Shown: one piece after another, positions 40,919-61,823 of the stretch
How positions within the stretch are numbered: position 1 is the stretch's first letter
How the letters are laid out: each line of letters starts with the position of its first letter
From: Paraflavitalea soli
Lineage (GTDB): Bacteria > Bacteroidota > Bacteroidia > Chitinophagales > Chitinophagaceae
Assembly: GCF_003555545.1 (NCBI RefSeq)
Contig: NZ_CP032157.1
Coordinates: 6,390,546-6,454,545 of the forward strand
Direction of reading: 5' to 3'
Length of the DNA: 64,000 nt
Made by a program: the position numbers and the translations under genes
Notes under the pieces: model-generated
What the model was told of the DNA's origin: nothing
Seen by the model: the letters and a program-made list of their open reading frames with translations, nothing else
Database searches by the model: none

Positions 40919-40952
40919 TTTGGAATTGTGTATAGATTACACATTATATTTG
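40919..40952 (+). promoter_or_regulatory. Bacteroidota-type promoter of the starch operon
   Basis: -33 box TTTG (40919-40922) and -7 box TATATTTG (40945-40952, consensus TAnnTTTG) with a 22-bp spacer. One GTGTA-N5-TACAC palindrome sits within the spacer and another begins at the end of the -7 box. Confidence 0.6.
40928..40942. promoter_or_regulatory. GTGTA-N5-TACAC palindrome, site 1
   Basis: GTGTATAGATTACAC, between the -33 and -7 boxes. Its centre is 24 bp from the centre of site 2. It is a likely operator, probably for the Nudix-like regulator encoded at 51671. Confidence 0.6.
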
Positions 40953-40966
40953 TGTAGCAGATACAC
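40952..40966. promoter_or_regulatory. GTGTA-N5-TACAC palindrome, site 2
   Basis: GTGTAGCAGATACAC, beginning at the last base of the -7 box and so covering the likely transcription start. Confidence 0.6.
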
Positions 40967-40997
40967 ATTATTAATACACCTAAACGAAAGCTTGTTT

Positions 40998-43900
40998 ATG
41001 ACGCCGAAACGATCGCTTGTGGGAGTCTTGACTCTCCTCTTGTGTCTACCTGTATTCTCCTGGGCACAGAGCAAAACCGTTACCGGTAAAATTACCGATG
41101 CCAGCAACGGCACTCCGGTACCCGGAGCTTCGGTCACCGCCAAAGGTTCCAAAGTGGGAACCTCTTCCAAAGCAGATGGCAGTTTTTCCTTAACCGTTCC
41201 TGCCGCAACAGCTACCTTAACTATTTCCGGCGTAGGCTTCGAATCGCAGGATGTACCTGTGGCCGCCGATGTCATCATTGTCTCCCTCAAGGCTGCCGCT
41301 TCCAACCTCAATGAGGTGGTGGTGATCGGTTATGGCACCCAGCGTCGCCGCGATGTTACCGGCGCCATTACCAAGGTAAGCGCCGAAAAGATCACTTCCA
41401 TTGCTGCGCCCAGCTTTGAAGCAGCCCTCCAGGGCAAGGCGCCTGGGGTGCAGGTAATACAGGGTAGTGGTTTGGCTGGCTCTGGCTCGGTGATCCGTAT
41501 CCGCGGTATTGCCTCCATTGGAGCCGGCGCCGATCCTCTTTATGTAGTGGATGGTATTCCCATCATATCCGATCCTTTCCTGCGCGCGAATAATGGTGGC
41601 ATGAACCAAAACCCTCTGGCAGCCATCAACCCCAATGATATTGAATCCATCGAGATACTGAAGGATGCCGCAGCTGCCGGTATTTATGGAAGCCGTGGTT
41701 CCAATGGTGTGATCCTGATTACCACCAAACGCGGTAAAAGTGGTCAACCCTCCTTCAACTACAACAATAAAATTGGAATCTCTACCTATGCCAACAGACC
41801 CGATTTCGTGAGTGGCTCCGAATGGCTGCAACTGCGCCAGGAGGCCTGGGAAAATGATGGCAATACTGGCAAAGCCCCCCTGCCTGGTGGCCTTACCTGG
41901 GAGCAGGCTTCCAAAAACAATACCGACTGGTGGGATCAACTTACCCGCAACGGGTTTATCAATGAGCATAGCCTGAGTATGACCCAGGGCAATAAGCTCG
42001 TGAAAAGTTTTGTGGGTGCTACTTACAGTGAGAACCAAAGCTACCTGAAGAACAACAGCTATACCCGCCTGGGCTTGCGTACCAACTTTGACTTTACCAT
42101 TACTCCCAAATTCAAAGCCACCCTGAGCGCTGCCTACAACCGTGGTATCAACAAACGTGTTCCTGCCGCCTGGGCAGGTGGTCTGGGCGATGCCATGAGT
42201 ACCGCATTACCGATCTATCCCGTCTATAATGATGATAAGACCTGGTTCACCGGTGGCGCCAATCCTGTTCGCCGCCTCAATGAGACCATCTGGAGAAATA
42301 CCGACAACCTTATAATAGGAGGACTGGTACTTGATTATGAAGTGATCAAAAACCTCAACGTACGTGTCAATGGCTCTTACAATTATCAGAACGGCATAGA
42401 CGATCAATGGGAGTCTGGCAACTGGATCAACGATACACAAAAACCTGGTCTGGCAAAACGTTCTCCCTACAGGGGTAAGAACTGGGTAGCTTCCGGAACG
42501 GCTACCTACAACTGGACCTACAAGGATGACCACCGTTTTACCTTCCTGGCAGGTATTGAGTTCCAGGAAAAGAGTTTTAACAACAGGGTATATGTAGAAA
42601 AGAATTCAGACAAGCCTTTCTATAAAAACAGGTCCTTATATAAACACGCCCTTGACTCTATCAAGCAAACTGCCACACCACTCAATGGCCCGGCGTATAA
42701 CGCAGAAACCTTTGCCAGTGCCTTTGGCCGGATCAACTATGTTTACAAAGAGCGATACGCTTTACAGGCCTCTATACGCCGCGATGGTTCTTCCAAATTC
42801 GGCCCCAACAAAAAATATGGTGTATTCCCCACCATCTCTGCCGGCTGGACCATCAGCCAGGAAGATTTCATGAAAGACCTTACATTCATCAACTTCCTGA
42901 AATTGCGGGCAAGCTATGGCCTCACTGGTAATTCAAACATACCTTCCGGACAGTATTACGATACTTATTATGCGGGTAATCCATACAACACACAGCCTAC
43001 CTTATATCCAGGCAATGTAGGTAACCCCGATCTGCATTGGGAAGAAACGGTCAATATAGATCTCGCAGTAGAGTTTGCTGCTTTCAACAACCGTATCACC
43101 GGTGAGGTGGCTTATTACAATAAGAAAACCACCGACCTCCTGCTCAATACCGCCATCTCGCCTTCTACCAGTTTCGGTACAGCTTTTCGTAATGTGGATG
43201 GCAGCGAAATATTGAATCAGGGTGTTGAAGTAAGCCTGAATGCAAAAGTGGTCAATAAAAAAGACCTTACATTTAGTATTGGTGGAAACATTGCTAAGAA
43301 CTACAACGAGCTCATTAGCCTGGGTGGATTGAGCGCCGATGCAGCAGGCGGCGGTAGCAACGATACCCGTGTAGTAACCGGTTATCCTATTGGTACCAAT
43401 TACCTCGTACGCTATTATGGCGTTGATCCCAACGATGGCCTGCCCATCTGGTACGACAAAGCCGGTAAGCTCACCAAAACCTTCAGCCTCGACAATCGCA
43501 TGCCCGTAGGTTCTGTAGTACCTGATTTCATTGGCGGTATCAACCACAACCTTAGCTATAAAGGTTTTGAATTTACCAGCTTGTGGACCTTCACTATTGG
43601 TGGTAATATTTATGATGGCTCTGCCAAAAGACAGGATGGTATTGTTACCGATTGGGTTATCCGTCGTGACCTGCTCGACAGGTGGCAGAAACCAGGCGAC
43701 CAGGCTAAGTTCCCCCGCCTCACCATGAATACAGGCACCTATGCCGGGCTGAGCAGCGAATGGCAATACAACAGCACCATGTTCCTGTATGATGCTTCTT
43801 ACCTGCGCTTGCGTGAACTGTCACTTGGCTATCGCTTTGATCCCAAAATGCTCACCAGGCTCCATGTAAAAGGCGCCCGCGTATTTGTAACAGGTATGAA

Positions 43901-44051
43901 CCTGCTCACCTTTACCAAATACCCCGGTGGTGATCCTGAGATTGCCCGTGATTTTGAAAGCGTTACCGACCGTAACCTTAGCCCGAATATTACCTACCTC
44001 ACCCCGCCTCAGCAGAAGTCATGGGTAATAGGGTTAAACGTTACATTCTAA
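40998..44051 (+). CDS. SusC/RagA-type TonB-dependent outer-membrane transporter (starch locus)
   Basis: 1,017 residues from the ATG at 40998, chosen because it begins the signal peptide (LVGVLTLLLCLPVFSWAQ). Then a carboxypeptidase-regulatory-like domain (TVTGKITDASNGTPVPGASV), the SusC linker NLNEVVVIGYGTQRRRDVTGAI, the plug with GKAPGVQVIQGSG and DPLYVVDGIPI, and a 22-strand barrel ending LTPPQQKSWVIGLNVTF. It imports oligosaccharides through the outer membrane with its SusD lid, powered by TonB. The neighbouring alpha-amylase points to starch-like alpha-glucans. First gene of the operon. Confidence 0.93.
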   Translation: MTPKRSLVGVLTLLLCLPVFSWAQSKTVTGKITDASNGTPVPGASVTAKGSKVGTSSKADGSFSLTVPAATATLTISGVGFESQDVPVAADVIIVSLKAAASNLNEVVVIGYGTQRRRDVTGAITKVSAEKITSIAAPSFEAALQGKAPGVQVIQGSGLAGSGSVIRIRGIASIGAGADPLYVVDGIPIISDPFLRANNGGMNQNPLAAINPNDIESIEILKDAAAAGIYGSRGSNGVILITTKRGKSGQPSFNYNNKIGISTYANRPDFVSGSEWLQLRQEAWENDGNTGKAPLPGGLTWEQASKNNTDWWDQLTRNGFINEHSLSMTQGNKLVKSFVGATYSENQSYLKNNSYTRLGLRTNFDFTITPKFKATLSAAYNRGINKRVPAAWAGGLGDAMSTALPIYPVYNDDKTWFTGGANPVRRLNETIWRNTDNLIIGGLVLDYEVIKNLNVRVNGSYNYQNGIDDQWESGNWINDTQKPGLAKRSPYRGKNWVASGTATYNWTYKDDHRFTFLAGIEFQEKSFNNRVYVEKNSDKPFYKNRSLYKHALDSIKQTATPLNGPAYNAETFASAFGRINYVYKERYALQASIRRDGSSKFGPNKKYGVFPTISAGWTISQEDFMKDLTFINFLKLRASYGLTGNSNIPSGQYYDTYYAGNPYNTQPTLYPGNVGNPDLHWEETVNIDLAVEFAAFNNRITGEVAYYNKKTTDLLLNTAISPSTSFGTAFRNVDGSEILNQGVEVSLNAKVVNKKDLTFSIGGNIAKNYNELISLGGLSADAAGGGSNDTRVVTGYPIGTNYLVRYYGVDPNDGLPIWYDKAGKLTKTFSLDNRMPVGSVVPDFIGGINHNLSYKGFEFTSLWTFTIGGNIYDGSAKRQDGIVTDWVIRRDLLDRWQKPGDQAKFPRLTMNTGTYAGLSSEWQYNSTMFLYDASYLRLRELSLGYRFDPKMLTRLHVKGARVFVTGMNLLTFTKYPGGDPEIARDFESVTDRNLSPNITYLTPPQQKSWVIGLNVTF

Positions 44052-44071
44052 ACAATCAAATCCACGCAACA

Positions 44072-45454
44072 ATGAAAAAAGCTATTTATATAATATTGCT
44101 GGGATGTATAACGGTGTACGTTTCATCCTGCAACAAATTTCTCGAACGAAAACCAGCAGGGGCCTTTACGGAGGATGAAGCGCTTAAGAACGATACTGAC
44201 CTGCAGGCCCTCATCAATGGCGCTTATACCGATTACTGCAACAAAGTATACAACGGAAAGCTCCAGTGGATAGAAGACCTGCTGGGCGATCAGGCAGTAG
44301 GTACATTATACACCGGCGATGATGGAGAGATCTTTAAACGCAAGACTTCCATCTTTGGTGATTACAAGAACGGCATGTATACCGACATGTATCGACCGGC
44401 CTATGTTGGCAATAAGGTACTGGAAAATATTGGTAAAGCAGGAACGCGCAAAAATGACATTGAAGGACAGGCCTACTTCCTGCGCGCACTCACCCATTTT
44501 GATGCAGTACGCCTCTGGGCCCAGCCCTGGGGATATAGTGCCGACAATTCCCATCCAGGCATCGTCCTCCGTACAGTGGCCGATGTTACACCCGGTACAC
44601 GCAGCTCCGTAAAAGAAGTGTATGAATCTATTATAGCCGACCTGAAAAAGGCCGAGAATTTACTGGGCGATGAGGTGGTGCTTGGCTTTGCCAATAAATG
44701 GTCTGCCAAAGCATTCCTTGCCAGGGTATATTTCATGCAAAACGATTTCGCCAATGCTTTTGCTTATGCCGACCAGGTGATCAGGAGCAACAAATTCCTG
44801 CTGGATGCTTCCTATGCCAACCGCTTTTCTATAGGTCTGTCCAAAGAGATCATCTTTGGGTTCAAGTTTGTTGACAATAACCTTTATCCCGGTGGCGAAC
44901 TGAGAAACCGTTACCGCAGCGACGTGGGTTTTAATGCCCAGAGCAGGTTTAATGTCACCAGCTTGTTTTATGCAGCAGCAACTACAGCCGGCGATGTACG
45001 CGGCACAGCCTGGTACAGCACCACCCTGGCGCCCGGATACAATGTGCTCACCAAGTATAACAAGAATAATTTTGATGTGCCCCTTATGGGCTATACAGAG
45101 ATTAAGCTCATCCGTGCTGAAGCAGCTGCCGAAACCGGCGGGGCCAACCTGGCTACTGCCATTACCGATATCAATGACATCCTCACCCGTGCTTACGGTG
45201 GCACTTCCAAAAACCTGCCTGTGAATGCCCTTGCAGCAACAGTGATCAATGCCGCCCGTCGCGAAAGAGAGCTGGAACTGGTAGGCGAAGGCAATCGCAT
45301 CCAGGAGATCAAACGAATTGGTGCCCGCACAGGTGTCAATATCGATCGCCGTGGCGGTCGTTGGAACTGTCCCGGACTGGCCTTGCAATTTCCTATTAGC
45401 GAACAAGCTGCCAACGCTTCTTTCCTGATGAACCAGGAAGGCGGATGTGATTAA
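44072..45454 (+). CDS. SusD/RagB-type nutrient-binding lipoprotein (starch locus)
   Basis: 460 residues with lipobox (YVSSC). Typical SusD features: TDLQALINGAYTDYCN, the helical TPR-like scaffold with AYFLRALTHFDAVRLWAQPWGY, and the C-terminal INDILTRAYGG...ARRERELELVGEGNRIQEIKR block. It caps the SusC transporter and binds the glycan. The ATG at 44072 gives the signal peptide directly; an earlier in-frame ATG would overlap susC. 20 bp after SusC. Confidence 0.92.
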   Translation: MKKAIYIILLGCITVYVSSCNKFLERKPAGAFTEDEALKNDTDLQALINGAYTDYCNKVYNGKLQWIEDLLGDQAVGTLYTGDDGEIFKRKTSIFGDYKNGMYTDMYRPAYVGNKVLENIGKAGTRKNDIEGQAYFLRALTHFDAVRLWAQPWGYSADNSHPGIVLRTVADVTPGTRSSVKEVYESIIADLKKAENLLGDEVVLGFANKWSAKAFLARVYFMQNDFANAFAYADQVIRSNKFLLDASYANRFSIGLSKEIIFGFKFVDNNLYPGGELRNRYRSDVGFNAQSRFNVTSLFYAAATTAGDVRGTAWYSTTLAPGYNVLTKYNKNNFDVPLMGYTEIKLIRAEAAAETGGANLATAITDINDILTRAYGGTSKNLPVNALAATVINAARRERELELVGEGNRIQEIKRIGARTGVNIDRRGGRWNCPGLALQFPISEQAANASFLMNQEGGCD

Positions 45455-45476
45455 TAAACCCATTTAACTAAGAAGT

Positions 45477-45977
45477 ATGAAGACCATACCATTTCTAACA
45501 ATACTCTTGATAGCCGGTTTATTATTCACCGGCTGCCGGCCCGATGGCTATGAACCCATCGGAAATGCCAATGACAATATCACTGCCATATCGGGCGCTT
45601 GGAAACTAACCAAGGTTACACAAACAGATGCTGAGTCACAACGCAAGGGTTTTCCTTATGCCGTGGAAGACATTACTACACTCTTCAATTATGCTTCCCT
45701 GCAGCTCACTTTCAACCTCGCCAGTGGCGCTCCGTCCACCTTTACCATCAACAATGGTTCAGCGCCTCCTATTACCGGTATTACTTCAGGCACCTGGTCG
45801 GTGGATGACATAAAAACACCGAAAACCATTTCATTGAAAAATGGAGCCATTACAGAAGCGATGACATTGGGCAGTTATCCCAACTCCGTGAATGGTAAAT
45901 TAAAAGTAAAGGTTACACGGACCGATGTAGCTACCAATAAGCTGCTCATTGTATATGATTATGAATTTTCCCGTTAA
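45477..45977 (+). CDS. Small lipoprotein, DUF5004-like
   Basis: 166 residues with lipobox (LLFTGC). The mature part is beta-rich with an early ISGAWKLTKVTQTD and YASLQLTFNLASG, then GTWSVDDIKTPKTISLKNG, which resembles lipocalin-like DUF5004 proteins that often lie in glycan loci. It is probably a surface accessory protein. Family assignment by resemblance only. Confidence 0.6.
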   Translation: MKTIPFLTILLIAGLLFTGCRPDGYEPIGNANDNITAISGAWKLTKVTQTDAESQRKGFPYAVEDITTLFNYASLQLTFNLASGAPSTFTINNGSAPPITGITSGTWSVDDIKTPKTISLKNGAITEAMTLGSYPNSVNGKLKVKVTRTDVATNKLLIVYDYEFSR

Positions 45978-45994
45978 CCCCCAAAGAAGCTATT

Positions 45995-46792
45995 ATGAAA
46001 AAACTATTGATACTTTCACTGATAATACTGGGCAGTCAGCTGGCCATGTCACAGTGTGTATTCGAGAACTACACCATCAGCCCGACCACTTTTACGGCAG
46101 AAGATGAAATTACCATCAGCTTCGATTTTACTGGTACTGCCGTGGCTGGCGAAACAGACCTGTATTTGTGGACCTGGTCCAACAAAGAGGCCACAGGGTT
46201 TACCGGTAAAGACGGCATTGTGAATACCGAATGGGCCAATTCCCCTGCCTCCGCAAAATTAACCCCCGTGGCCGGTGCTCCCAACAAATTCACCTACAAG
46301 TTTACCGCTACTACCATGTACAATCAGACGCCCGGGCAATTGAAGCATTTTCAATTCCTGGCCAAAACAAAAAATGGGAGCAAGCAATCATGCGATAGCA
46401 AGAAGAATGCTTTTGATCCACTCGTATTTGTACCCAGCATGCTACGCATTTTCCCGGCAAAGGTTGGCCAAAATGATGTAGTGTCCCTCTATTTCCACCA
46501 GGACCTCGCCACCTCCATTGATGAACAACGCATGGAGCCTGTATCAGTAACCGTAGAAGTATTTGACAATACAGGCGCTTCTGCCGGTCAACCCCTCACA
46601 TTACCTGTCAAGAGCGCTGGCACCAAACTGTGGAAAGCTTTCTTTGTGCCCACCCGTTCTTACACCCCTGGTGCAGGAAAGAAGTTCACAAGGTTTACCT
46701 ATAAGTTCAATGGCACAGTACGCGATGCCAGCAACCAGCCCGTAACCGTTAGTACGGCAGTTGTTGAAGTGACTTTAGCCGAAATGAAATAA
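45995..46792 (+). CDS. Secreted accessory protein of the starch locus, DUF4961-like
   Basis: 265 residues with a signal peptide (KLLILSLIILGSQLAMSQ) and two beta-sandwich-like halves: CVFENYTISPTTFTAEDEITISFDF with DLYLWTWSNKEA, and LRIFPAKVGQNDVVSLYFHQDL onward. Similar proteins lie beside SusC/D and GH13 genes in this phylum and may contact the glycan. No enzymatic motif. 17 bp after the previous gene. Confidence 0.55.
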   Translation: MKKLLILSLIILGSQLAMSQCVFENYTISPTTFTAEDEITISFDFTGTAVAGETDLYLWTWSNKEATGFTGKDGIVNTEWANSPASAKLTPVAGAPNKFTYKFTATTMYNQTPGQLKHFQFLAKTKNGSKQSCDSKKNAFDPLVFVPSMLRIFPAKVGQNDVVSLYFHQDLATSIDEQRMEPVSVTVEVFDNTGASAGQPLTLPVKSAGTKLWKAFFVPTRSYTPGAGKKFTRFTYKFNGTVRDASNQPVTVSTAVVEVTLAEMK

Positions 46793-46824
46793 CATCCCTC
46801 TAAACAATAATAATATTGTTGCTT

Positions 46825-48561
46825 ATGAAAAAGTTCCTGATGCTTGCTGTTCTGTCCGTCGTACTGTTCGCCGGCTGCCAGAAAGCAGATTTTGATAGCA
46901 CAGTCACAGGCGAAGCCCTGGGTGCATTCACCCTCAATACACCTGCTACCAATGCAGCCCTTGTTTTAAATGCAGCTACCCCCACAGCCAAAGTGGAGAT
47001 CAGCTGGACAGCTTCAAAACCAGGTGTAGATGTTACCCCCGTATACAAATGGATCGCTGCCCTCAAAGCTACCGGTAACCTCGATGCTCCTTTACTGGAA
47101 ATTCCTTCCGACAACAATGGGGCTGATGCCAAATTAACCCTCACCCAAAAACAACTGGATGATGTCCTGAAAGCTAAAGGCATTGCCGATGGCGCCAAAG
47201 CCGACCTCATATGGAGTGTAAAGGCCGACAACGGTTCTACCCAACTGGTTGCCGGAGATATCAGGAACATCAGCATCACCCGCATGAAAGATGGTGTTAC
47301 AAACTTTATCCTGCTGAGCCCGGCTTCTGCTACTGCACCTATAACCGTCAATCCTGTCTCTACCGCAGACAGTGTTAGATTCAAATGGACAAAAGGCTTA
47401 CCGGCAACCGGCGGTCCGGCCATTACTTACCAGGTGGCATTCAGCAAGGACGGTAATTTTACCTCTCCCTTGTTTGCCATCCCCGCTTCCAACACCGGCA
47501 AGGATACTGCCCTAAGTATCGCTGCTAAGCAATTCAATGATTCACTCGTAAAATATGGCTTCACTGATCTCTCCCAAACGGTAAGCCTTAAATGGACTGT
47601 TATAGCTACCTCCGGTACCTGGAAGCAACAGGCCGATTACATCAACGACATTGCTTTCCTGCGCGAAGTGAACTTTTACCTTGTAGGGACTCCGAATGGA
47701 TGGAGTATCGACAATCCCCTCAAACTGATTGTGGACCAGAAAGCCGATCGTTACGGTACCGTATTCTACACCTACATCAAACTGGCAGCCAACGATGAAT
47801 TCAAATTCTTTAAGACGCCAGGTGACTGGGGTTCCGGCTATGGAGACAATGGCGCTGGTACTACCCCCGGCAGCTACAAAACAGGTCTCAATGTAGGTGG
47901 CAACCTCAAGGTTACCACTGCTGGCATTTACCGCCTTACCATCGACACGAAGAACGAACTCGCCTATGTACAGCAAAAGCAGGTGGGCGTGGTAGGCGGT
48001 ATGCAGGGGTGGACACCGGCAACTCCTTTGTATGGTGCTTACCTGCAGCGCGATAAATTTCTCATCATTGTTCCATCTTCCGGTACCGATGAATTCAAAT
48101 TCCATGATGCGTCACTCGGCGCCGCCTGGAACTTTGGCATTGGTGACGACCGTTGGTGGGGTGGCGCTGATGGCAAACTGGTGCAGGATGGTGGCGATCC
48201 TAACATTAAAGCTCCTTATTCGCCTTATACAAGATTGATCTGGGATGCTACCAATGTGCAGCAGATGAAATACAATGTCTACCAGGGTAAACTGCGCATC
48301 ATTGGCGGCGCCCCTGTTATAGGCGACTGGAACCCTGCCAATGCACTCGACATGGATTACCAGGGTAATGGAGTCTGGAAGAAAACCATCACGCTCACAG
48401 CGTCTACCGAATTCAAATTTGTAAGCGCAGAAGGATGGGACCTTAACTATGGAGCAGACGGAGCCGGTAAGATCAAAGAAGGCGGAGACAACATCACCCG
48501 TGCTGCCGGCACGTATACCGTTACCGTTGACGAATACAACAGAACCTATACCGTTTTGTAA
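46825..48561 (+). CDS. SusE/SusF-like starch-binding outer-membrane lipoprotein
   Basis: 578 residues with lipobox (VLFAGC). The N-terminal SusE-type Ig-like domains (ALVLNAATPTAKVEISWTASKPG and a second copy near VNPVSTADSVRFKWTKGLP) are followed by about three starch-binding modules with aromatic pairs, such as YLVGTPNGWS, VGVVGGMQGWTPA, IIGGAPVIGDWNPA and ExKFxxxxDW-type strands. It should hold alpha-glucan at the cell surface for the amylase and SusC/D. ATG at 46825 is used; a TTG lies 9 bp upstream. Confidence 0.85.
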   Translation: MKKFLMLAVLSVVLFAGCQKADFDSTVTGEALGAFTLNTPATNAALVLNAATPTAKVEISWTASKPGVDVTPVYKWIAALKATGNLDAPLLEIPSDNNGADAKLTLTQKQLDDVLKAKGIADGAKADLIWSVKADNGSTQLVAGDIRNISITRMKDGVTNFILLSPASATAPITVNPVSTADSVRFKWTKGLPATGGPAITYQVAFSKDGNFTSPLFAIPASNTGKDTALSIAAKQFNDSLVKYGFTDLSQTVSLKWTVIATSGTWKQQADYINDIAFLREVNFYLVGTPNGWSIDNPLKLIVDQKADRYGTVFYTYIKLAANDEFKFFKTPGDWGSGYGDNGAGTTPGSYKTGLNVGGNLKVTTAGIYRLTIDTKNELAYVQQKQVGVVGGMQGWTPATPLYGAYLQRDKFLIIVPSSGTDEFKFHDASLGAAWNFGIGDDRWWGGADGKLVQDGGDPNIKAPYSPYTRLIWDATNVQQMKYNVYQGKLRIIGGAPVIGDWNPANALDMDYQGNGVWKKTITLTASTEFKFVSAEGWDLNYGADGAGKIKEGGDNITRAAGTYTVTVDEYNRTYTVL

Positions 48562-48744
48562 CTGGGCCATAAATGATGGCCTGCCAGGACTTTAATGGCC
48601 AGGTCACCATACAGTAGAACGGCAGGTCACCCTGTCGCGGGGTTTGGCTCCGCAGGAGCCGCCGCTTTGTAGAAACAACATTGCGTTGAAAAGAGCGGAC
48701 CCCCGTAGGGGACGCCCCATAGCGTAAAGCAAAAACGATTGCTG
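48562..48744. other. Intercistronic spacer with repeats
   Basis: 183 bp of GC-rich repeat-like DNA between the SusE-like and amylase genes (GGTCACC words, CTCCGCAGGAG, GTAGGGGACGCCCC). The longest gap inside the operon; no clear promoter or terminator seen. Confidence 0.4.
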
Positions 48745-51645
48745 ATGAAGTCATTTGTCCTTGCTATAATAAGCGTAGTCCTGTGTGTAACCACCGGCAC
48801 CGCACAATTACTCACTACGTCGCCGGCTTTCCCTGCCGACAATGCTGCACTCACCATCACAGTGGATTGCACCAAAGGCAACCAGGGCCTGTTGAATTAT
48901 GCCAATACCAATGACGTGTATATACATATTGGTGTGATCACCAACCTCAGCGCCAACAATACCGATTGGAGATATTCAAAGTTTACCTGGGGAGTGACCA
49001 CCGAACCTGCTGCCAAAGCCACCTGGATATCCGCCAATAAGTACCAGTACACCATCAGTAATATCCGTAGCTTCTTCAATGTACCAATGGGCGAAACCAT
49101 CCGGAAGGTGGCCCTTCTTTTCAGAAATGGATCAGGTTCCCTGGTGCAGCGCATATCCGATCCTTCAGTAGATATGGGCAATATGTACATCACCGTGTAT
49201 GACAATGTCCTTACAGGCAGGTTTACCGCTCCGCCCATGGAAGATAGGTTCATACCCGTTCCCGAACCCATCACCAAAACCACCGGCGAGTCCATCGAAA
49301 TAACTTATGCCTCTAGTAATACAGCCAATCTCAAATTGTTCTTCAATGGAACAGAGATCAATAGTGTAGCAGGCAATACCCTTATCCAGGCAACACCCAC
49401 CATCACAGTGGCCGGTAACCAGCAAATAGTCGGTAGGGTTACCGATGGTATCACCACCCATTCAGATACCATTAGTTTCTTTGCAGCGCCAGCCGTCAAT
49501 ATCCAGCCTTTACCTGCTGGTGTAAGGGATGGTATTAACTACGAACAGGGCGATACTTCGGCCATTTTGGTATTGTATGCGCCCAACAAAAACAAAGTAT
49601 CTATCATTGGCGATTTTAATAACTGGATAGAATCCGTCAATTACCAATGCAATAAAACGCCCGACGGCCTCCGGTTCTGGAAACGCATCACCGGCCTTAC
49701 CCCAGGTACCGAATATGCTTACCAGTTCGTCATTGATAATACCCTCAGGATAGCAGATGCCTACACATCAAAAGTATTGGATCCCAACAATGACCAGTTC
49801 ATTGCCGCAGCCACCTATCCCAACCTCAAGCCTTATCCAACGGGCAAAACCACCGGTATTGTGAGTGTATTGCAAACCGCAAAACCCGCCTATACCTGGC
49901 AGGTCAATAATTTCAGCCGCCCCGACAAGCGCAACCTGCTTATCTATGAATTGCTCCTGCGCGACTTTGTAGGCAACCACGATTGGAAGACATTAAAAGA
50001 CACCCTGAGCTACCTGAAGCGTCTTGGCATCAATGCCATTGAGCTCATGCCTTTCAATGAATTTGAAGGCAATATCAGCTGGGGTTATAACCCTTCCTTC
50101 TACTTTGCACCCGATAAATATTATGGCCCGGAAACCAGCCTCAAAGCATTGATTGATGAATGCCATAAACAAGGTATCGCCGTCATCATGGATATGGTAC
50201 TCAATCATTCCTTTGGCCAGTCGCCCATGGTGCAGTTGTATTTCGATGCTGCCAAAGGCCGGCCCACCCCCGAAAGCCCCTGGTTCAATACCGCAGCCAA
50301 ACATCCTTTCAATGTTGGGTACGATTTCAACCATGAAAGCCCCGCCACCCAATACTTTGTGAGCCGCGTAGTAGAGTTTTGGCTAAAAGAATACAAGCTC
50401 GATGGGTTTCGTTTTGACCTCTCCAAAGGATTTACCCAGAAAGCCTCCTGCGATGCAGATGGTAATAATTGCAACCAGGCCAACTGGGATGCCTATGATG
50501 CCAGCCGCATTGCCATCTGGAAAAAATATTACGATACCATTCAATCCAAATCCAATGGCAGCTACGTCATCCTGGAACACCTGGGTGTGAACGATGAAGA
50601 GAAGGAGCTGGCAGCCTATGGCATGATGCTGTGGGGCAATATGAACTATGCTTTTAATGAAGCCACCATGGGTTACACCGGCACCTCCGACTTTAAAGGT
50701 GCCATCCATGTGGAAAGAGCATGGAGCCAGCCCAACCTCGTAGCCTATATGGAAAGCCATGATGAAGAGAGGCTCATGTACAAGAACACCCAGTTTGGCA
50801 ACGCCTCCGGCGCCTATAATGTGAAAGACCTCATCACTGGTCTACGGAGAAATGAAATGGCAGCCGCTTTCTACTTTACCATACCAGGCCCTAAGATGAT
50901 CTGGCAGTTTGGCGAGCTGGGTTACGATTATTCCATCAACTATTGCGAGAACGGTACCATTAATAACACCTGCCGTACTGACCCCAAACCCCTTAAATGG
51001 GACTACCCTCAAAATGCCGATAGGAAGAAGCTATTCGACATATACAGCGTAATGCTTGCCCTCCGCAACCACCCGGCCTATAAGAACGGGTTTACAACCG
51101 ACCGCATCACATGGAATCTTTCCGGGGCGTTCAAATGGTTGAAACTGACTACTGATACGTCTAATATACTGGTAGTTGGAAATTTTGATGTTACAGCTGT
51201 TACCGGCTCCGTGCAGTTTCAAAATGCAGGCACCTGGTACGATTACCTGACCGGCCAAACCATTGCTGCCACTGGCAATTCACAAACCATTTCCTTGCAA
51301 CCCGGCGAGTATCATGTATATTTGAACCGAAACATAACAAATATTCTTACCCCCGTCACCGATCTCGACAACCAGGGTAAGGATACACGGTTAAGCGTCT
51401 ATCCCAACCCGGTCACATCGAACTCTACCATTGAATATGAACTACCGCTCAATACGGAAGTAACTTTTTCCTTGCTAAATGTAAATGGTCAACGGATCTC
51501 CGAACTACAGGCAGGTTTTAAGACCAAAGGAGTCCATCAATTACCTTTGTACAAATTGAAAGGTGCCAGGCCAGCGGCAGGATTGTATTTTGTGCGAATG
51601 AGGTTTGGCAACAACAGCCTGATCAGAAAACTAATTATTAATTAA
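48745..51645 (+). CDS. GH13 alpha-amylase with T9SS sorting domain
   Basis: 966 residues. Signal peptide (SFVLAIISVVLCVTTGTAQ), two N-terminal beta domains including a CBM48-like module (VSIIGDFNNWIESVN), then the GH13 barrel. Conserved regions: VIMDMVLNHSFGQSP (I), DGFRFDLSKGF with nucleophile Asp558 (II), VILEHLG with acid/base Glu611 (III), MESHDEER with His672-Asp673 (IV). After the C-domain a Por secretion domain closes the protein (LSVYPNPVTSN...GLYFVRMRFGNNSLIRKLIIN). Bacteroides SusG is a lipoprotein; here surface display uses type IX export. Cleaves alpha-1,4 glucan. Confidence 0.93.
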   Translation: MKSFVLAIISVVLCVTTGTAQLLTTSPAFPADNAALTITVDCTKGNQGLLNYANTNDVYIHIGVITNLSANNTDWRYSKFTWGVTTEPAAKATWISANKYQYTISNIRSFFNVPMGETIRKVALLFRNGSGSLVQRISDPSVDMGNMYITVYDNVLTGRFTAPPMEDRFIPVPEPITKTTGESIEITYASSNTANLKLFFNGTEINSVAGNTLIQATPTITVAGNQQIVGRVTDGITTHSDTISFFAAPAVNIQPLPAGVRDGINYEQGDTSAILVLYAPNKNKVSIIGDFNNWIESVNYQCNKTPDGLRFWKRITGLTPGTEYAYQFVIDNTLRIADAYTSKVLDPNNDQFIAAATYPNLKPYPTGKTTGIVSVLQTAKPAYTWQVNNFSRPDKRNLLIYELLLRDFVGNHDWKTLKDTLSYLKRLGINAIELMPFNEFEGNISWGYNPSFYFAPDKYYGPETSLKALIDECHKQGIAVIMDMVLNHSFGQSPMVQLYFDAAKGRPTPESPWFNTAAKHPFNVGYDFNHESPATQYFVSRVVEFWLKEYKLDGFRFDLSKGFTQKASCDADGNNCNQANWDAYDASRIAIWKKYYDTIQSKSNGSYVILEHLGVNDEEKELAAYGMMLWGNMNYAFNEATMGYTGTSDFKGAIHVERAWSQPNLVAYMESHDEERLMYKNTQFGNASGAYNVKDLITGLRRNEMAAAFYFTIPGPKMIWQFGELGYDYSINYCENGTINNTCRTDPKPLKWDYPQNADRKKLFDIYSVMLALRNHPAYKNGFTTDRITWNLSGAFKWLKLTTDTSNILVVGNFDVTAVTGSVQFQNAGTWYDYLTGQTIAATGNSQTISLQPGEYHVYLNRNITNILTPVTDLDNQGKDTRLSVYPNPVTSNSTIEYELPLNTEVTFSLLNVNGQRISELQAGFKTKGVHQLPLYKLKGARPAAGLYFVRMRFGNNSLIRKLIIN

Positions 51646-51670
51646 GCTTTACCAGCATAACATCAACAAT

Positions 51671-52390
51671 ATGGGAACCGCTTTGCAGAAAACCATTCAA
51701 CAGTTAAGGTCAGAGAACAGGGAGTATTTCCAGATAGCCCTTTCTGTAGACTGCGTGATCTTTGGATTTGATGAAAATGAATTGAAAGTACTCCTCATCA
51801 AATCTGATCTGGAAGAGTTTAATGACCAATGGTCTCTTCTCGGCGACCTCGTAAGTCCGGATGAAAACCTCGACAGCGCTTCTTACCGCGTATTGAAAGA
51901 GCGTACCGGCCTCGATGACGTCTACCTCGAACAGGTCTATACGTTTGGTGATGTGAATCGTCACCCGGCTGGCCGGGTAATTACTACCGCCTGGTATTCC
52001 CTCATCAATGTCAAGGATCACCAACTCGATCTGGCTCACAATGAATTGCATTGGCACCCCGTAACTGAGATCACTACATTGGCTTTTGACCACAAAAAAA
52101 TATTGGATACCTGCCTGAAGCAATTGCAATCAAAGATCGACGAGCACCCCATTGTATTTAACCTGTTGCCGGAAAAGTTCTCCCTGCGTGAACTCCAGAG
52201 CCTGTATGAATCCATCCTGGGCACCAAGCTCGATCGCCGCAACTTCCGCAAGAAGTTCTTCCTCATGGATTGGCTCATCGATGTAAATGAACTGGAGCAG
52301 GATGTGCCCCACAGACCCGGTAAATTGTACCGGTTCAATGCTGCCAGGTTTTCCAATGGTAAGGTGAAGCTCGAAGAAGCTGTCCATTAA
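51671..52390 (+). CDS. Nudix-domain/winged-helix transcriptional regulator (NrtR/AraR-like)
   Basis: 239 residues. An N-terminal Nudix-like domain (residues 18-150; IALSVDCVIFGFDENELKVLL) and a C-terminal winged helix (FSLRELQSLYESIL...LDRRNFRKKFFLM). The Nudix box reads GDLVSPDENLDSASYRVLKE then RTG: the catalytic REuxEE is degraded to RVLKER, so hydrolysis is unlikely and the domain probably senses a sugar metabolite, as in NrtR- and AraR-type regulators of sugar use. It starts 25 bp after the amylase stop, so it is probably transcribed with the operon. Likely binds the GTGTA-N5-TACAC sites; that link is inference. Confidence 0.88.
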   Translation: MGTALQKTIQQLRSENREYFQIALSVDCVIFGFDENELKVLLIKSDLEEFNDQWSLLGDLVSPDENLDSASYRVLKERTGLDDVYLEQVYTFGDVNRHPAGRVITTAWYSLINVKDHQLDLAHNELHWHPVTEITTLAFDHKKILDTCLKQLQSKIDEHPIVFNLLPEKFSLRELQSLYESILGTKLDRRNFRKKFFLMDWLIDVNELEQDVPHRPGKLYRFNAARFSNGKVKLEEAVH

Positions 52391-52419
52391 TTAATACCTG
52401 CTGTTATTAATACTTTACG

Positions 52420-52462
52420 CATCCCTTTTTGCATGCCTGGTGCTTGTAAAAGGGATGTTTTT
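52420..52462 (+). terminator. Terminator of the starch operon
   Basis: CATCCCTTTT and AAAAGGGATG arms (10 bp) with an 18-base loop, followed by TTTTT, 30 bp after the regulator stop. Confidence 0.75.
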
Positions 52463-52682
52463 CTGTGGTTTTACACTACCGAAGCCCATCGTTTCCTTTC
52501 CTTCCTGCTACCCCTTTATGCTTCCTTTTTCTAATATTTCCTGCCAAAAATCAGGGCTAATAGCTTGATAACTATATTCTTGTCATGATTGTGACGTATG
52601 ATAATTTTTATCCTAACCGCATCATTTTCATCCGGAAATAATTGTTAAATAATTTGTAAATACGATATAAATAGGTTAAATT

Positions 52683-52697
52683 GTGTATAAGCTACAC
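52683..52697. promoter_or_regulatory. GTGTA-N5-TACAC palindrome, site 3
   Basis: GTGTATAAGCTACAC. It begins at the last base of the presumed -7 box of the second SusC gene, the same placement as site 2 of the first operon, and shares the flanking ATTGTGTATA with site 1. Confidence 0.6.
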
Positions 52698-52735: not shown

Positions 52736-55700
52736 ATGACATCAAATCGATTGTTTACAGCATCTGCTTTGCTATTGCTGACTCTGTGTTTCAGCGCTGC
52801 CACCCTCGCTCAGGATAAAATTATCACCGGAAAAATTTCAGACTCAAAAGATGGGACACCTGTAGTAGGTGCTTCAGTAGTGCCTAAAGGATCTGCCAAA
52901 GGTACTTCTACCGGCACAGACGGCTCCTTCCGCGTCAATGTGGCCGAAGCCGTCACTACCCTGGTAGTTTCTTCCGTAGGGTACATCACCCTGGAAGTAG
53001 ACATCACCGGGAAAACTGTTGCCAACATCTCACTCGAAGCCAGTAACTCCGCCCTCAATGAGATCGTGGTGGTGGGTTATGGCACTGCCCGCAAAAAAGA
53101 CCTCACCGGTGCCGTGGCATCCGTTAAAGCCAAAGACTTTAACCAGGGTATTCAAACTTCCCCCGACCAGCTCATTCAGGGAAAAGTAGCTGGCGTACAG
53201 ATCATGAACAACAGTGGGCAGCCAGGTGGTGGCACTACTGTTAAGATCAGGGGCAACTCCAGCATCCGGGCTGGCAGCAATCCGCTTTATGTAGTGGATG
53301 GTATTCCGCTCGACGGCCGTTCCGCCCGCCCGGGTGGTTCTGGCGCAGGTATTGGAACTTCTCCTGCCGCCAATCCCCTCAATTTTATGAACCCCAATGA
53401 CATCGCCTCCATCGAAGTATTGAAAGATGCTTCCGCTACTGCTATATATGGATCAAGAGGTGCGTATGGGGTCATTATCATTAACACGAAAAGAGGACAA
53501 ACAGGCGCCCCTAAAATGGATGTAAATTTTTATGTGGGTATGAGTAAGCTGATCAAGCAGCTCAAAGTATTGGATGCAGGCGAGTACAAGAAAGCATTGG
53601 CCGATTATGGATTGACCACCGGCGATTACGGCGGCAGCGTAGATGCTATGGACGCTATCTTAAGAACCGCCTGGACTCAGAACTATGACGTAGGTTTCAG
53701 CGGTGGTACTGAAAATGGCCGCTACCGCATCTCAGCAGGCTACCTCGATCAGGAAGGCATCATCCGAAAATCTAATTTTAAGAAATACAGCACCAATATC
53801 AGTGGCTTCTTTAAGTTCCTGGAAAGTAAAAGACTCGGTGTTGACTATAATATCATTGCCTCTCAAACGGTAGAACAGATTGCGCCCGTTTCCAACGATG
53901 CCGGCTTTACCGGTAGCATCATCGGCCAGGCATTGCAATGGAACCCTACCCGGCCCCTCATCAGAAAAAAAGCCAATGGTCAGGATTCCCTCGATATAGA
54001 TAAGAACTCTTCTACCGTCAACCCCCTCGCTATGTCTGAGGCTTATGACGATCATTCAAAAGTCACCAGCATATTAGGTAGCATCTCTCCCTATTTTAAG
54101 ATCACCAAAGACCTGGAATACCGCATGCTGTTCAGCATTAATTATAGTACCGGTATCAGGAATGCGCAGATCGCCAAATATATCAACCTGCAGGATATTG
54201 GCCCCAGTACCGATTACCCCGACGGAAGGGGCGTGGCTTACACCGGTACCAATGAACTTACCACCAAGCAGTTTACACATACCCTCAACTATAATAAAAA
54301 GATATCACCATCATTCAACATCAATGCCTTACTCGGGTTTGAGTACATGAAGTTTGATACCAAGGGTAGCGGCATGAACGCCCGCGATTTTGGAAGTTAT
54401 AATATACCTTTTACCAATTATTTCCAGTTTAGCTCTCAATCTACCCGCGGCACCTTTTCCTTTGCTGATCCCACCACAGAACTCCAGTCCTACTTTGGTC
54501 GCGCGATCGTCAACTATAAAGACAGGTATTTACTGACAGCTACTTTCCGGGCCGATGGTTCTACCAAATTTGGTAAGAACAACCGCTATGGATACTTCCC
54601 TTCCTTCGCGGTAGCCTGGAACGTACAGAACGAATCATTCTTCGATGTCGATTTCATAAATACACTGAAAGTAAGAGCTGGTTGGGGTAAAACCGGTAGC
54701 CAGGATGCTCCTCCCGGTTCAGCCCAGGAGCGTTATGGCTTCAATGGTCCCAACTCTACTTTTAAAGTAAATGCCGAAAACAAAGACCTCAAATGGCAGG
54801 CCGATGAGCAGATTGATATCGGGCTCGACTTTACAATATGGGAAAACAGGATCAGCGGTACCATCGATTATTTTCATAAGAAAACAACCGGACTGCTCTA
54901 TCCTACCATCACAGCCCAGCCTGCACCTCCGGGAGCTCCGCCTACCTGGAAGAACCTGGATGCGGAGATCGTAAATAAAGGCGTGGAAGTAACCGTACAG
55001 GCCAATATCATCAAAACAAGAGAGTTCAGCTGGGACCTGGGTGTCAATGCCTCCTTCCTGAAAAATGATGTGAGTGGATTACCCGCTCCCATCGCTACCG
55101 GAGGCTTGCACGGACAAGGTATTTCCGGCGCTACCGTAGAGCAGATCACCAACAACCAGCCCATCAATGTATTTTATACCAAAAGGTTCTTGGGCATTGA
55201 TAAAGGAACCGGATTGGCCAATTATTCTGATGACGGATATGTACTGTATTACCTGGGCAATCCCAATCCTTCAACAGTATTAGGGATCAGCACATCCGTA
55301 AACTATAAGAAATTCTTTGCAGTGGTCAACATGAATGGAGCCATGGGACAAAAGATCTATAACAATACCGCCAACACCGTATTGCCCATTGGTAACCTTA
55401 TCGGTGGCCGCAACATCGCCAGGGCATTGATAGGTACCGAAGTCAAGGAAAACCTCGCCAATCCCATTTCCCCTTCTTCCCGCTATATTGAAAATGGTAG
55501 TTACCTCAAGCTGGCCAATGCCACCATTTCTTACAATGTGGGCAATATTGGAAAGGCATTGAAGAACCTCAATGTGTATATAGCCGGACAGAACCTGTTT
55601 GTAATTACCAAATTCACAGGGTTTGATCCCGAAGTAAATACCGATAAGCAAGTAAATGGTATTCCTTCTGTGGGAATTGAGTATACGCCTTATCCTTCAG

Positions 55701-55741
55701 CCAGGTCATTCCAGATCGGGTTAAACTTTTCTCTTCAATAG
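52736..55741 (+). CDS. SusC/RagA-type TonB-dependent transporter, second locus
   Basis: 1,001 residues with a signal peptide (ASALLLLTLCFSAATLAQ), a regulatory-like domain (IITGKISDSKDGTPVVGASV), ALNEIVVVGYGTARKKDLTGAV, plug (GKVAGVQIMNNSG, NPLYVVDGIPLDG) and a barrel ending ARSFQIGLNFSLQ. It is clearly a paralogue of the first SusC but with a different barrel, so the substrate may differ. The shared palindrome at the promoter hints at co-regulation with the starch operon. No glycoside hydrolase is encoded next to it. Confidence 0.93.
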   Translation: MTSNRLFTASALLLLTLCFSAATLAQDKIITGKISDSKDGTPVVGASVVPKGSAKGTSTGTDGSFRVNVAEAVTTLVVSSVGYITLEVDITGKTVANISLEASNSALNEIVVVGYGTARKKDLTGAVASVKAKDFNQGIQTSPDQLIQGKVAGVQIMNNSGQPGGGTTVKIRGNSSIRAGSNPLYVVDGIPLDGRSARPGGSGAGIGTSPAANPLNFMNPNDIASIEVLKDASATAIYGSRGAYGVIIINTKRGQTGAPKMDVNFYVGMSKLIKQLKVLDAGEYKKALADYGLTTGDYGGSVDAMDAILRTAWTQNYDVGFSGGTENGRYRISAGYLDQEGIIRKSNFKKYSTNISGFFKFLESKRLGVDYNIIASQTVEQIAPVSNDAGFTGSIIGQALQWNPTRPLIRKKANGQDSLDIDKNSSTVNPLAMSEAYDDHSKVTSILGSISPYFKITKDLEYRMLFSINYSTGIRNAQIAKYINLQDIGPSTDYPDGRGVAYTGTNELTTKQFTHTLNYNKKISPSFNINALLGFEYMKFDTKGSGMNARDFGSYNIPFTNYFQFSSQSTRGTFSFADPTTELQSYFGRAIVNYKDRYLLTATFRADGSTKFGKNNRYGYFPSFAVAWNVQNESFFDVDFINTLKVRAGWGKTGSQDAPPGSAQERYGFNGPNSTFKVNAENKDLKWQADEQIDIGLDFTIWENRISGTIDYFHKKTTGLLYPTITAQPAPPGAPPTWKNLDAEIVNKGVEVTVQANIIKTREFSWDLGVNASFLKNDVSGLPAPIATGGLHGQGISGATVEQITNNQPINVFYTKRFLGIDKGTGLANYSDDGYVLYYLGNPNPSTVLGISTSVNYKKFFAVVNMNGAMGQKIYNNTANTVLPIGNLIGGRNIARALIGTEVKENLANPISPSSRYIENGSYLKLANATISYNVGNIGKALKNLNVYIAGQNLFVITKFTGFDPEVNTDKQVNGIPSVGIEYTPYPSARSFQIGLNFSLQ

Positions 55742-55754
55742 CAAAAAACTTTTT

Positions 55755-57266
55755 ATGAAATATACACGATTGCTTTTTTTCATAATACCCGTCTTCCTGT
55801 TGGTCGCTTGTACCAAGCTCGAAGAGAAGTTAAACGGAGAGGTATCACCCGATCAGGTAGCTGGCGGCGGATCTTCTACGGCCAGTTTGCTAAAAGGGGT
55901 GTATGATGCCATGCGCAGCCCTTACCAGGACCAAAGCCGTTTCTGGGCAGCCCAGGAACATACCAGCGATGAATGTATAGGGCCCACAAGAGGTGGCGAT
56001 TGGGATGATAATGGCGTATGGCGCATTCTTCACGTGCACAAATGGGATGGCGATCACCTGTTCTTACGCCAAACCTTTGAAGACCTGGGAGGCGTAATTT
56101 ATGCCGGCACCGATATGCTGCGTTTTAACCCCACTGCGCAGCAAGCTGCAGAAGCAAGATTCCTGAGAGCCTTTGCCATGTTCTCCATGCTCGATGGCTG
56201 GGACCAGGTTCCTTATCGTGAGCCAGGTGGTGATATCCTCCAGGCGCCTAAAGTAAGAAAGGGAACAGAAGCATTGGACTATATTATTGCAGAGGTAAAT
56301 GCCATCATGAACGACCTGCCGGCAACCCCTGTCAACAAAGCCAATAAGGATGCCGCCAGGGTATTATTAATGAAATGCTACATCAACAAAGGTGTTATCG
56401 CCAACCGCGCTACCCCAGCCTTTGCCGCCGCCGATATGGACCAGGTCATTACTCTGGCCGACCAGATCATTAACAGCAACAAGTATAAGCTGGCCACCCA
56501 ATACTTCGACAATTTTGCGCCCAATAACGATGTTATCTCTACCGAGAATATCTTTACCGCAGAAAATATTGGCGGCTCTTCCAGTGGTAACGTTCGTTCC
56601 CGCTGGTTCTGTACTTTACACTACAACAACAATCCCGGAGGCTGGAATGGTTTTACTACCCTGTCCGACTTTTACAACAAGTTCGAAGCCGCTGACGTTC
56701 GCAGAAGCCAAAGCTACCCCGGCGTGACCAACGTATCCGGCATCAAGCCCGGCTTCCTCGTAGGACAGCAATTTGATCAGAATGGTGTAGCGCTGAAAGA
56801 CAGGGGCGGTCGCCCCCTCGCATTCACGCCCGAAGTAAAAGCCATCGAGATCGGTACCAACCTCGAAGTGACCGGTATAAGAGTTATTAAATACCCGATA
56901 GACTATAATAATGGTGATAATTCCAACAACGACTATGTATACTATCGTTATGCCGATGTGATTCTCATGAAAGCTGAAGCCCTGTTAAGGAAGAACAATG
57001 CTGCCGCCGCTTTGCCACTGGTGAACGAAGTGCGCACCAAAAGAGGTATCGCAGCATTGGCATCTGTAAACCTCGATCAGCTGCTGGATGAAAGAGGCCG
57101 CGAATTCTACTGGGAGGGCATGAGAAGGAATGACCTGATCCGCTTTGGTAAGTTCCTGCAACCCTGGCAGGAAAAACCAACCGACGATCCTAAGAACCTG
57201 TTATTCCCCATTCCTAACCAGCAAATTGCAGCTAACCCAAATCTTGTACAAAATACCGGGTATTAA
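55755..57266 (+). CDS. SusD/RagB-type lipoprotein, second locus
   Basis: 503 residues with lipobox (LLVAC). SusD hallmarks: STASLLKGVYDAMRSPYQ, AARVLLMKCYINKG, YYRYADVILMKAEALLRKN and ALPLVNEVRTKRGIAAL...LLDERGREFYWEGMRRNDLIRFG. It pairs with the preceding SusC (13-bp gap). It has Trp-rich stretches near residue 80 (DECIGPTRGGDWDDNGVWR) that may be the ligand face. Followed by a strong hairpin. Confidence 0.92.
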   Translation: MKYTRLLFFIIPVFLLVACTKLEEKLNGEVSPDQVAGGGSSTASLLKGVYDAMRSPYQDQSRFWAAQEHTSDECIGPTRGGDWDDNGVWRILHVHKWDGDHLFLRQTFEDLGGVIYAGTDMLRFNPTAQQAAEARFLRAFAMFSMLDGWDQVPYREPGGDILQAPKVRKGTEALDYIIAEVNAIMNDLPATPVNKANKDAARVLLMKCYINKGVIANRATPAFAAADMDQVITLADQIINSNKYKLATQYFDNFAPNNDVISTENIFTAENIGGSSSGNVRSRWFCTLHYNNNPGGWNGFTTLSDFYNKFEAADVRRSQSYPGVTNVSGIKPGFLVGQQFDQNGVALKDRGGRPLAFTPEVKAIEIGTNLEVTGIRVIKYPIDYNNGDNSNNDYVYYRYADVILMKAEALLRKNNAAAALPLVNEVRTKRGIAALASVNLDQLLDERGREFYWEGMRRNDLIRFGKFLQPWQEKPTDDPKNLLFPIPNQQIAANPNLVQNTGY

Positions 57267-57286: not shown

Positions 57287-57317
57287 CAGGAGGTCATTTT
57301 TATAGAATGACCTCCTG
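57287..57317 (+). terminator. Perfect 12-bp hairpin between SusD and the FG-GAP gene
   Basis: CAGGAGGTCATT and AATGACCTCCTG with a 7-base loop, then TTTGTTT. It looks like an intrinsic terminator, yet its 3' arm ends only 7 bp before the ATG of the next gene. It may be a leaky terminator that lowers expression downstream, or a translation-control hairpin. Confidence 0.6.
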
Positions 57318-57324
57318 TTTGTTT

Positions 57325-60732: not shown

Positions 60733-60740
60733 TATCTTTG
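60733..60740 (+). promoter_or_regulatory. Possible -7 box of the TPR gene
   Basis: TATCTTTG fits TAnnTTTG and lies only 6 bp before the ATG at 60747, implying a very short or no leader. The box adjoins the dispersed repeat, so the repeat may have supplied part of the promoter. Confidence 0.35.
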
Positions 60741-60746
60741 GTTTCT

Positions 60747-61769: not shown

Positions 61770-61798
61770 TTAGCAAAAGCTATCCAAACGCCCCTGCA

Positions 61799-61823
61799 GC
61801 CCCGCTTTGGCGGGGCTTTTTTT
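61799..61823 (+). terminator. Strong terminator
   Basis: GCCCCGC and GCGGGGC arms with a TTTG loop followed by seven T residues. Confidence 0.92.

Follow-up and report, generated by a model that had tools for sequence, protein, structure and literature searches.

Glycan uptake in Bacteroidota has its founding model in the SusC/D system of starch use, the control of which is, to our knowledge, known chiefly from SusR of Bacteroides. How such genes might be controlled in the Chitinophagaceae is the question raised by a stretch of 64,000 nucleotides (in the following, the window) from Paraflavitalea soli (assembly GCF_003555545.1, contig NZ_CP032157.1, positions 6,390,546–6,454,545 of the forward strand). 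Two SusC promoters in the window carry the palindrome GTGTA-N5-TACAC, and a gene for a degenerate Nudix/winged-helix protein (51671–52390, plus strand; the 51671 protein) lies between the two SusC genes. What binds to the palindromes, and which genes would be controlled by it? It is very probable that the palindromes are operators of the 51671 protein and that this protein is an alpha-glucan regulator of many Chitinophagaceae, namely an autoregulated repressor which is released by a sugar; the binding, the repression, the effector and the operon borders are what we infer from the sequences.

Palindromes at the two SusC promoters

GTGTA-N5-TACAC was found at three places in the window, as the first-pass annotation had reported and as a pattern search with shuffles confirmed: GTGTATAGATTACAC at 40928–40942 (operator 1), GTGTAGCAGATACAC at 40952–40966 (operator 2, 24 bp from operator 1) and GTGTATAAGCTACAC at 52683–52697 (operator 3), none of them being assigned to a strand. 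Three exact copies were present in 0 of 100 dinucleotide shuffles of the window (mean 0.04), and among words w in the arrangement w-N5-rc(w), where rc denotes the reverse complement, GTGTA shared the top rank with ATTTT (three copies each; mean 0.09). The earlier remark that no others were noticed holds true of exact matches; two more were found with one mismatch, at 452 and 47024, which is near chance (5 including the exact ones vs. 1.24 expected).

The promoter consensus is TTTG at −33 and TAnnTTTG at −7. On this basis we take TTTG to be the −33 box, and TATATTTG and TTAAATTG to be the −7 boxes. The first SusC promoter would then consist of TTTG at 40919–40922, read directly, and TATATTTG at 40945–40952, and the second one of TTTG at 52653–52656 and TTAAATTG at 52676–52683 (all on the plus strand). 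Operator 1 is located between the −33 and −7 boxes, and operators 2 and 3 each begin with the last G of a −7 box. This placement, which had been described before, matched a letter-by-letter check, the second −7 box being imperfect, with two mismatches to the consensus.

A genome-wide search (8,443,189 bases in a single contig) had been proposed as a check. There were 9 exact matches vs. 5 for the reversed pattern, and 19 vs. 8 when one mismatch was allowed (exact matches included). Since 9 vs. 5 is uninformative alone, position and context were used as the test: five of the nine exact copies are promoter sites, and the other four are, according to lists of open reading frames (ORFs), inside ORFs (L002, L004, L009) or on the 3' side of a gene (L001). 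The genome-wide count favours chance palindromes; the shuffles, the promoter positions and, as described below, the enrichment, regulon content and footprint all oppose chance, the probability of which we consider negligible.

The 51671 protein and its known relatives

Pfam matches of the 51671 protein above cut-off were NrtR_WHD (87.7 bits), AraR_C (46.3) and NUDIX (38.9); the score with the NCBIfam NrtR model, 133.9 bits, was far below the cut-off of 400. The closest solved relative is BtAraR (BT0354; 5bs6 and others), with an E value of 3.3e-53. The Nudix box (REUxEE) is degenerate: G is replaced by D59, the first E by V and the last E by R78. For the comparison of single residues, AraR numbering was mapped onto the chain with an offset of three, and all AraR residues checked gave the expected letter. 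The DNA-contact residues D178, R180, N181, R183, K184 and R205 were unchanged in all 58 close orthologues (at least 53% identity); the position of K179 was occupied by R in 54 and by K in 4 of these, and that of K204 by H in 58/58.

According to PMC4666351, the co-crystal operator of BtAraR consists of GTGT, seven bases and ACAC, with GTGT being defined by the contacts; tandem sites have 21 bp each and are mostly 3 bp apart, and DNA binding is abolished by arabinose. The window operators fit GTGT-N7-ACAC, i.e., the same 15-bp frame, and sites of 21 bp with a gap of 3 bp give a 24-bp register, as found for operators 1 and 2. Other similarities (PMC4666351) are the combination of a Nudix-like domain and a winged helix, the DNA-contact residues, the presence of operators at SusC and sugar operons, and the location of the regulator gene inside its own regulon. 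Judged from its domains, its impaired Nudix box and, by comparison with BtAraR, the operator frame and contacts, the 51671 protein is a member of the NrtR/AraR family.

The differences from BtAraR are a separate clade, an altered pocket and recognised targets which are alpha-glucan instead of arabinose genes. The arabinose pocket of AraR comprises R34, F36, G48, F49, R86 and H131. Among the pocket residues, R86 and H131 were kept in 58/58 close orthologues, and F129 was also kept; replacements were R34→S (in 55), G48→D (57), L67→R (57) and F36→L (46). In a tree of regulators, BtAraR grouped with a P. soli paralogue encoded at 73680 (support 99/94), the starch clade stood apart, and the 51671 protein was closest to Paraflavitalea/Niastella sequences; due to long branches the placement is tentative. 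AraR (arabinose) orthology was rejected on the basis of the pocket, with R34 and G48 replaced, and of the tree. No arabinose genes were present at the five promoter sites of the P. soli genome, and none at the sites of relatives among the families listed (25 of 43).

Two NrtR-family paralogues are encoded in the same genome, at 73680–74309 (L085:7660–8364) and 6079536–6080174, and the operators could be bound by them or shared with them. Both keep D-K/R-R-N in the recognition helix, and BtAraR itself reads GTGT-N7-ACAC; they have, however, F-S-R where the 51671 protein and BtAraR have F-R-K. Family genomes with only other NrtR homologues contained the 17-bp form of the palindrome (see below) in 4 of 14 cases, GTGT-N7-ACAC was absent from the 19.9-kb stretch around the 73680 paralogue, and the recognised targets, being alpha-glucan and not arabinose genes, likewise speak for the 51671 protein; we regard a role of the paralogues at these operators as quite improbable. 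The 73680 paralogue has a largely AraR-like pocket and its stretch holds arabinofuranosidase and GH43 genes; to judge from these features, it is perhaps the arabinose regulator of the P. soli genome.

With NrtR, an ADP-ribose-responsive repressor of genes for nicotinamide adenine dinucleotide (NAD), the 51671 protein shares the family, the fold (NrtR_WHD) and a basic residue, R78 (57/58 close orthologues), at the place of Lys76 of SoNrtR, which is a phosphate contact (PMC4666351). It differs from NrtR by the low NCBIfam score, by Ala at the place of SoNrtR Arg98, and by the absence of NAD genes among the identified targets. XylR (BT0791) of Bacteroides likewise belongs to the NrtR family and is associated with sugar operons (PMC4666351); it is set apart by its regulon, which is that of xylose. 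SusR of Bacteroides thetaiotaomicron, a starch activator, is described in PMC3878776 as membrane-bound and maltose-binding, with predicted direct-repeat sites. The 51671 protein resembles SusR in having starch-use operons with SusC/SusD under its predicted control; identity with SusR was rejected, as Nudix and winged helix-turn-helix domains fill the 51671 protein and its sites are short palindromes, not direct repeats. Among the open-licence PubMed Central (PMC) matches listed there was no starch or maltose regulator from the NrtR family, and neither starch nor maltose is mentioned in the available part of PMC4666351. Family and operator code are already known; the regulon and the altered pocket would appear to be new.

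Operators and regulon in related genomes

A homologue of the regulator (E value 0.001 or better) was present in 96 of 147 related genomes. In 40 orthologue loci (747 kb, L040–L079) GTGTA was, N runs aside, the top word w in w-N5-rc(w), with 24 copies in 17 of the loci; the next word had 14 copies, and the mean for any word was 1.3. GTGT and ACAC were separated by seven bases 44 times vs. 2–9 times at the other spacings between 0 and 14. GTGTA ranked first again in 56 orthologue loci from named genomes (971 kb; organisms partly overlapping with those of the 40-locus sample), with 33 copies in 30 loci and a mean of 1.5. Paraflavitalea, Niastella, Pseudobacter, Pseudoflavitalea, Chitinophaga, Filimonas and Ilyomonas are among the organisms. 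Operators, of one form or the other, were found in 37 of the 58 close loci, and a homologue of the amylase, SusC, SusEF or FG-GAP protein was nearby in 35.

The palindromes could also be owned by another factor, CRP/FNR-like or unrelated, with the Nudix gene being a mere neighbour. The sequence TGTGTA is similar to the CRP half-site TGTGA; the CRP operator is TGTGA-N6-TCACA, which occurred once in the 40 loci vs. 32 times for TGTGT-N7-ACACA, and a CRP/FNR-type site is ruled out by this spacing. The sites track the presence of the orthologue, and they share their frame with the operator in the BtAraR crystal. Ownership by another factor has thus a very small probability, and the 51671 protein remains by far the better candidate.

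The 17-bp pattern TGTGTAN5TACACA was present in 61 of the 147 genomes. Within the family, 46 of the 59 orthologue-bearing genomes contained it vs. 6 of the 29 orthologue-free ones; the rates were 0.472 and 0.079 per Mb, respectively (p = 2.4e-7). A control palindrome, TGATGTN5ACATCA, was also somewhat commoner in orthologue-bearing genomes (0.233 vs. 0.149 per Mb, 1.6-fold, p = 0.009) and more gene-internal, for which reason per-Mb rates are given as well.

Phylogenetic footprinting with orthologues, another check that had been proposed, showed conserved operators. The first SusC promoter was aligned for eight chosen genomes (G000–G004, G033, G006, G040), with the window itself counted in the identities; all eight have two operators, 24–26 bp apart, around the −7 stretch. 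The identity to the window of the GTGT/ACAC half-sites was 1.00 for operator 1 and 0.97 for operator 2, compared to 0.68 and 0.75 for the respective N7, 0.92 between the operators, 0.49 in the 80 bases upstream and 0.85 in the downstream leader. One half-site base is changed in the second operator of G004 and G006, and the first operator of G001 has A for the inner T. An unchosen sample consisted of the 110 bases upstream of the SusC1-like gene in all searched loci with a SusC1-like N-terminus of 44% identity or more (n = 15). GTGT-N7-ACAC was present in 14 of these, and a tandem pair (one half-site base free) in 9, namely in 9/9 with an identity of 62% or more; the six at 44–61% had a single site (5) or no site (1). 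Four of the 15 loci (L249, L230, L272, L276) owe their place in the sample to the pattern, for which they had been fetched; none of the remaining 11 is without a site. Operator 3 was letter-identical in 5/5 genomes of the genus, with upstream flanks which diverge, and G075 has the site with another N5. This supports the earlier proposal that the locus with SusC2, SusD and FG-GAP protein is coupled to starch use. The proposed link between regulator and palindromes likewise gains support, as far as sequences can provide it, from the BtAraR frame, the enrichment near orthologues, the footprint and the co-occurrence across genomes.

Seven Flavobacteriales-type loci (42–44% identity) contained the regulator gene beside genes for a major facilitator superfamily (MFS) transporter, a GH13 enzyme and an amylase in six cases, the contig of the seventh ending there; the exact palindrome was just upstream of the regulator in five of the seven, with the cluster regulator-MFS-GH13-amylase. 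One of them (L177) also has a GH65 gene nearby. From more distant homologues ten loci were available, eight from other families and two from Chitinophagaceae (G019, G047). GTGT-N7-ACAC was present near the regulator or the SusC gene in five of the ten, and in four of these (L322–L325) the inner base is T or C; these four have NFRRK for NFRKK in the recognition helix, and their sites are GTGTT..AACAC and GTGTC..GACAC. The inner-base change together with NFRRK could possibly represent a specificity switch. Retention of exact GTGTA by all homologues was rejected as a rule, since distant ones keep at most GTGT-N7-ACAC. In assemblies labelled Williamsia (L154) and Sphingomonadales (L184), the regulator groups among Bacteroidota; probably these are binning or naming errors.

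The regulon had been called local, which was not borne out, since the sites are spread over the genome and the content is conserved in relatives. Promoter sites in the P. soli genome are operators 1 and 2 (SusC1), operator 3 (SusC2), a site about 42 bp before the ATG of a secreted 802-amino-acid GH13 amylase with a tail for the type IX secretion system (T9SS; L083), and a site about 46 bp before the ATG of an MFS transporter gene, which is followed by a cyclomaltodextrinase gene (L084). On its other side, the latter site has the start of a WGR/HEAT gene at a distance of about 120 bp, and genes of the WGR/HEAT, SWIM and reverse-transcriptase types form a row there (L084:9395–16265).

Site locations were compared in 60 hand-picked regions with 62 sites, not all independent, since some site regions or promoters had been fetched for holding the pattern; 56 sites were located between genes, no more than 400 bp from a gene start, 4 were inside ORFs and 2 had no near gene. 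The control palindrome (30 loci, 31 sites) was inside ORFs in 27 cases and between genes, no more than 400 bp from a gene start, in 4, although it is less AT-rich, which makes its gene-internal location an imperfect control. The Pfam families of the 55 nearest genes included (25 of 43 families listed) TonB plug (13), GH13 (12), GH77 (4), MFS (4), phosphofructokinase (PFK; 2), carbohydrate phosphorylase (2), GH31 (1), phosphoenolpyruvate carboxykinase (PEPCK; 1) and DeoC-type aldolase (1); TonB, alpha-glucan and MFS classes would account for 36 of the 55, provided that no protein bears two. A divergent MFS neighbour was present at five amylases with sites (L221, L253, L268, L270, L276). The operators at PFK, DeoC-type aldolase and PEPCK genes of relatives (L223, L267, L225, L266; L267 was classed by ORF size and tally alone) suggest that glycolysis and gluconeogenesis genes are under the same control in some of them.

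Besides the genome-wide count, the skewed control palindrome and the fetched regions, several observations weigh against the 51671 protein as the regulator of these sites. In the 56-locus sample, AAAAA was close behind GTGTA (27 vs. 33). Homologues of the amylase, SusC, SusEF or FG-GAP protein were missing from the DNA examined in 23 of the 58 close loci, and at least 19 of the 55 nearest genes, among the families listed, are outside the alpha-glucan, TonB and MFS classes. The exact 17-bp pattern was absent from 13 of the 59 orthologue-bearing family genomes; it was present in the six orthologue-free ones mentioned, G047 (83% complete) having four copies, and the 59 genomes of other families contain 9 copies in total. 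Exact GTGTA-N5-TACAC was absent from 10/10 loci of the more distant homologues, and three Runella loci were without a site, as was the truncated locus L189. In seven Chitinophaga loci (L130, L131, L133, L135, L136, L138, L163) a conserved operator-like site is located about 150–165 bp downstream of the regulator, and no starch gene was recognised beside it (Pfam for L131 only).

Mode of action and layout of the operons

A dimer of the 51671 protein would read GTGT-N7-ACAC by its recognition helix D-R/K-R-N-F-R-K, as BtAraR does. Bound at the window promoters, it would cover the −7 box and start region, with a second dimer between the −33 and −7 boxes at the first promoter. Such a position of the operators argues for repression of transcription, and the location of the regulator as probable last gene argues for autoregulation, i.e., its own operon SusC-SusD-...-amylase-regulator would be included. 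Release would follow when the altered Nudix pocket is filled by a product of alpha-glucan breakdown, either a sugar or a sugar phosphate. The SusC1 operon, the SusC2/D/FG-GAP operon, the secreted amylase and the MFS-cyclomaltodextrinase pair would form one regulon.

When 108 sites were oriented to the nearest gene, the median distance from the end of the site to the ATG was 48.5 bp. In the flank away from the gene TTG, with which a −7 box ends, was preferred to its mirror (58 vs. 17 discordant sites, p = 2e-6; the test scores T two bases before the palindrome), and a full TAnnTTTG ending on the first G of the palindrome was present in 4 of the 108. Median distance and TTG flank would fit a repressor over the −7 box and start region. 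An activator which recruits polymerase when sugar is present, thus being similar to SusR in function, is unlikely: SusR is an activator (PMC3878776) and operator 1 is upstream of the −7 box, but operators 2 and 3 overlap the −7 box and start region, the median distance is short, and BtAraR leaves DNA upon binding of its sugar (PMC4666351).

With respect to the effector, a sugar phosphate is weakly suggested by R78 at the place of SoNrtR Lys76 (PMC4666351) and by the presence of glycolytic genes in some regulons. A phosphorylated glucose derivative would be compatible with the loss of the arabinose-binding Arg (S45), with R78 (57/58) at the phosphate-holding place and with D59. Tentatively, and with more doubt than confidence, a former nucleotide-pyrophosphatase fold could be imagined as master switch of alpha-glucan use, in some species also of the PFK/aldolase/PEPCK branch point, which would sense such a derivative and be a cytosolic counterpart of SusR in Chitinophagaceae; Flavobacteriales-type bacteria would have a relative of it. 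A conserved Nudix-type regulon would provide a testable control circuit for Chitinophagaceae and would add alpha-glucans to the NAD and pentoses with which the NrtR family is associated. The FG-GAP/UnbV SusC/D locus would gain a likely place in starch use, and the operator code could serve for regulon prediction in environmental Bacteroidota genomes.

Operon 1 probably extends from SusC1 to the regulator gene and operon 2 from SusC2 to a TPR gene; all genes are on the plus strand. Operon 1 begins with a SusC-like TonB-dependent receptor (40998–44051; Pfam Plug, CarbopepD_reg_2) and a SusD-like protein (44021–45454; SusD-like_3, SusD_RagB; the longest ORF, of which the start may be later). They are followed by a DUF5004 protein (45477–45977; PF16395), a function-unassigned protein with a weak DUF4961 match below the curated cut-off (45995–46792), a SusE/SusF-like protein with CBM20 (46816–48561; SusE, SusF_SusE, CBM_20) and a GH13 alpha-amylase with a T9SS sorting tail (48739–51645; Alpha-amylase, Por_Secre_tail), 25 bp past the stop of which the regulator gene begins. 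Operon 1 is probably terminated by a hairpin followed by a T-run at 52419–52458 (plus strand; −19.1 kcal/mol, z −2.48), the folding of which was equalled by 2 of 200 shuffles; it is absent from the list of a terminator scan. Operon 2 encodes a second SusC-like receptor (52736–55741; Plug), a SusD-like protein (55755–57266; SusD_RagB), an FG-GAP/UnbV-ASPIC protein (57307–60660; domain match) and, probably as last gene, the TPR protein (60738–61769). It is followed by a terminator-like hairpin at 61798–61817 (plus strand; 8 pairs, 7 of them G-C, with a T-run), found in a scan of this stretch which yielded 2 hairpins vs. 2.1 expected by shuffles.

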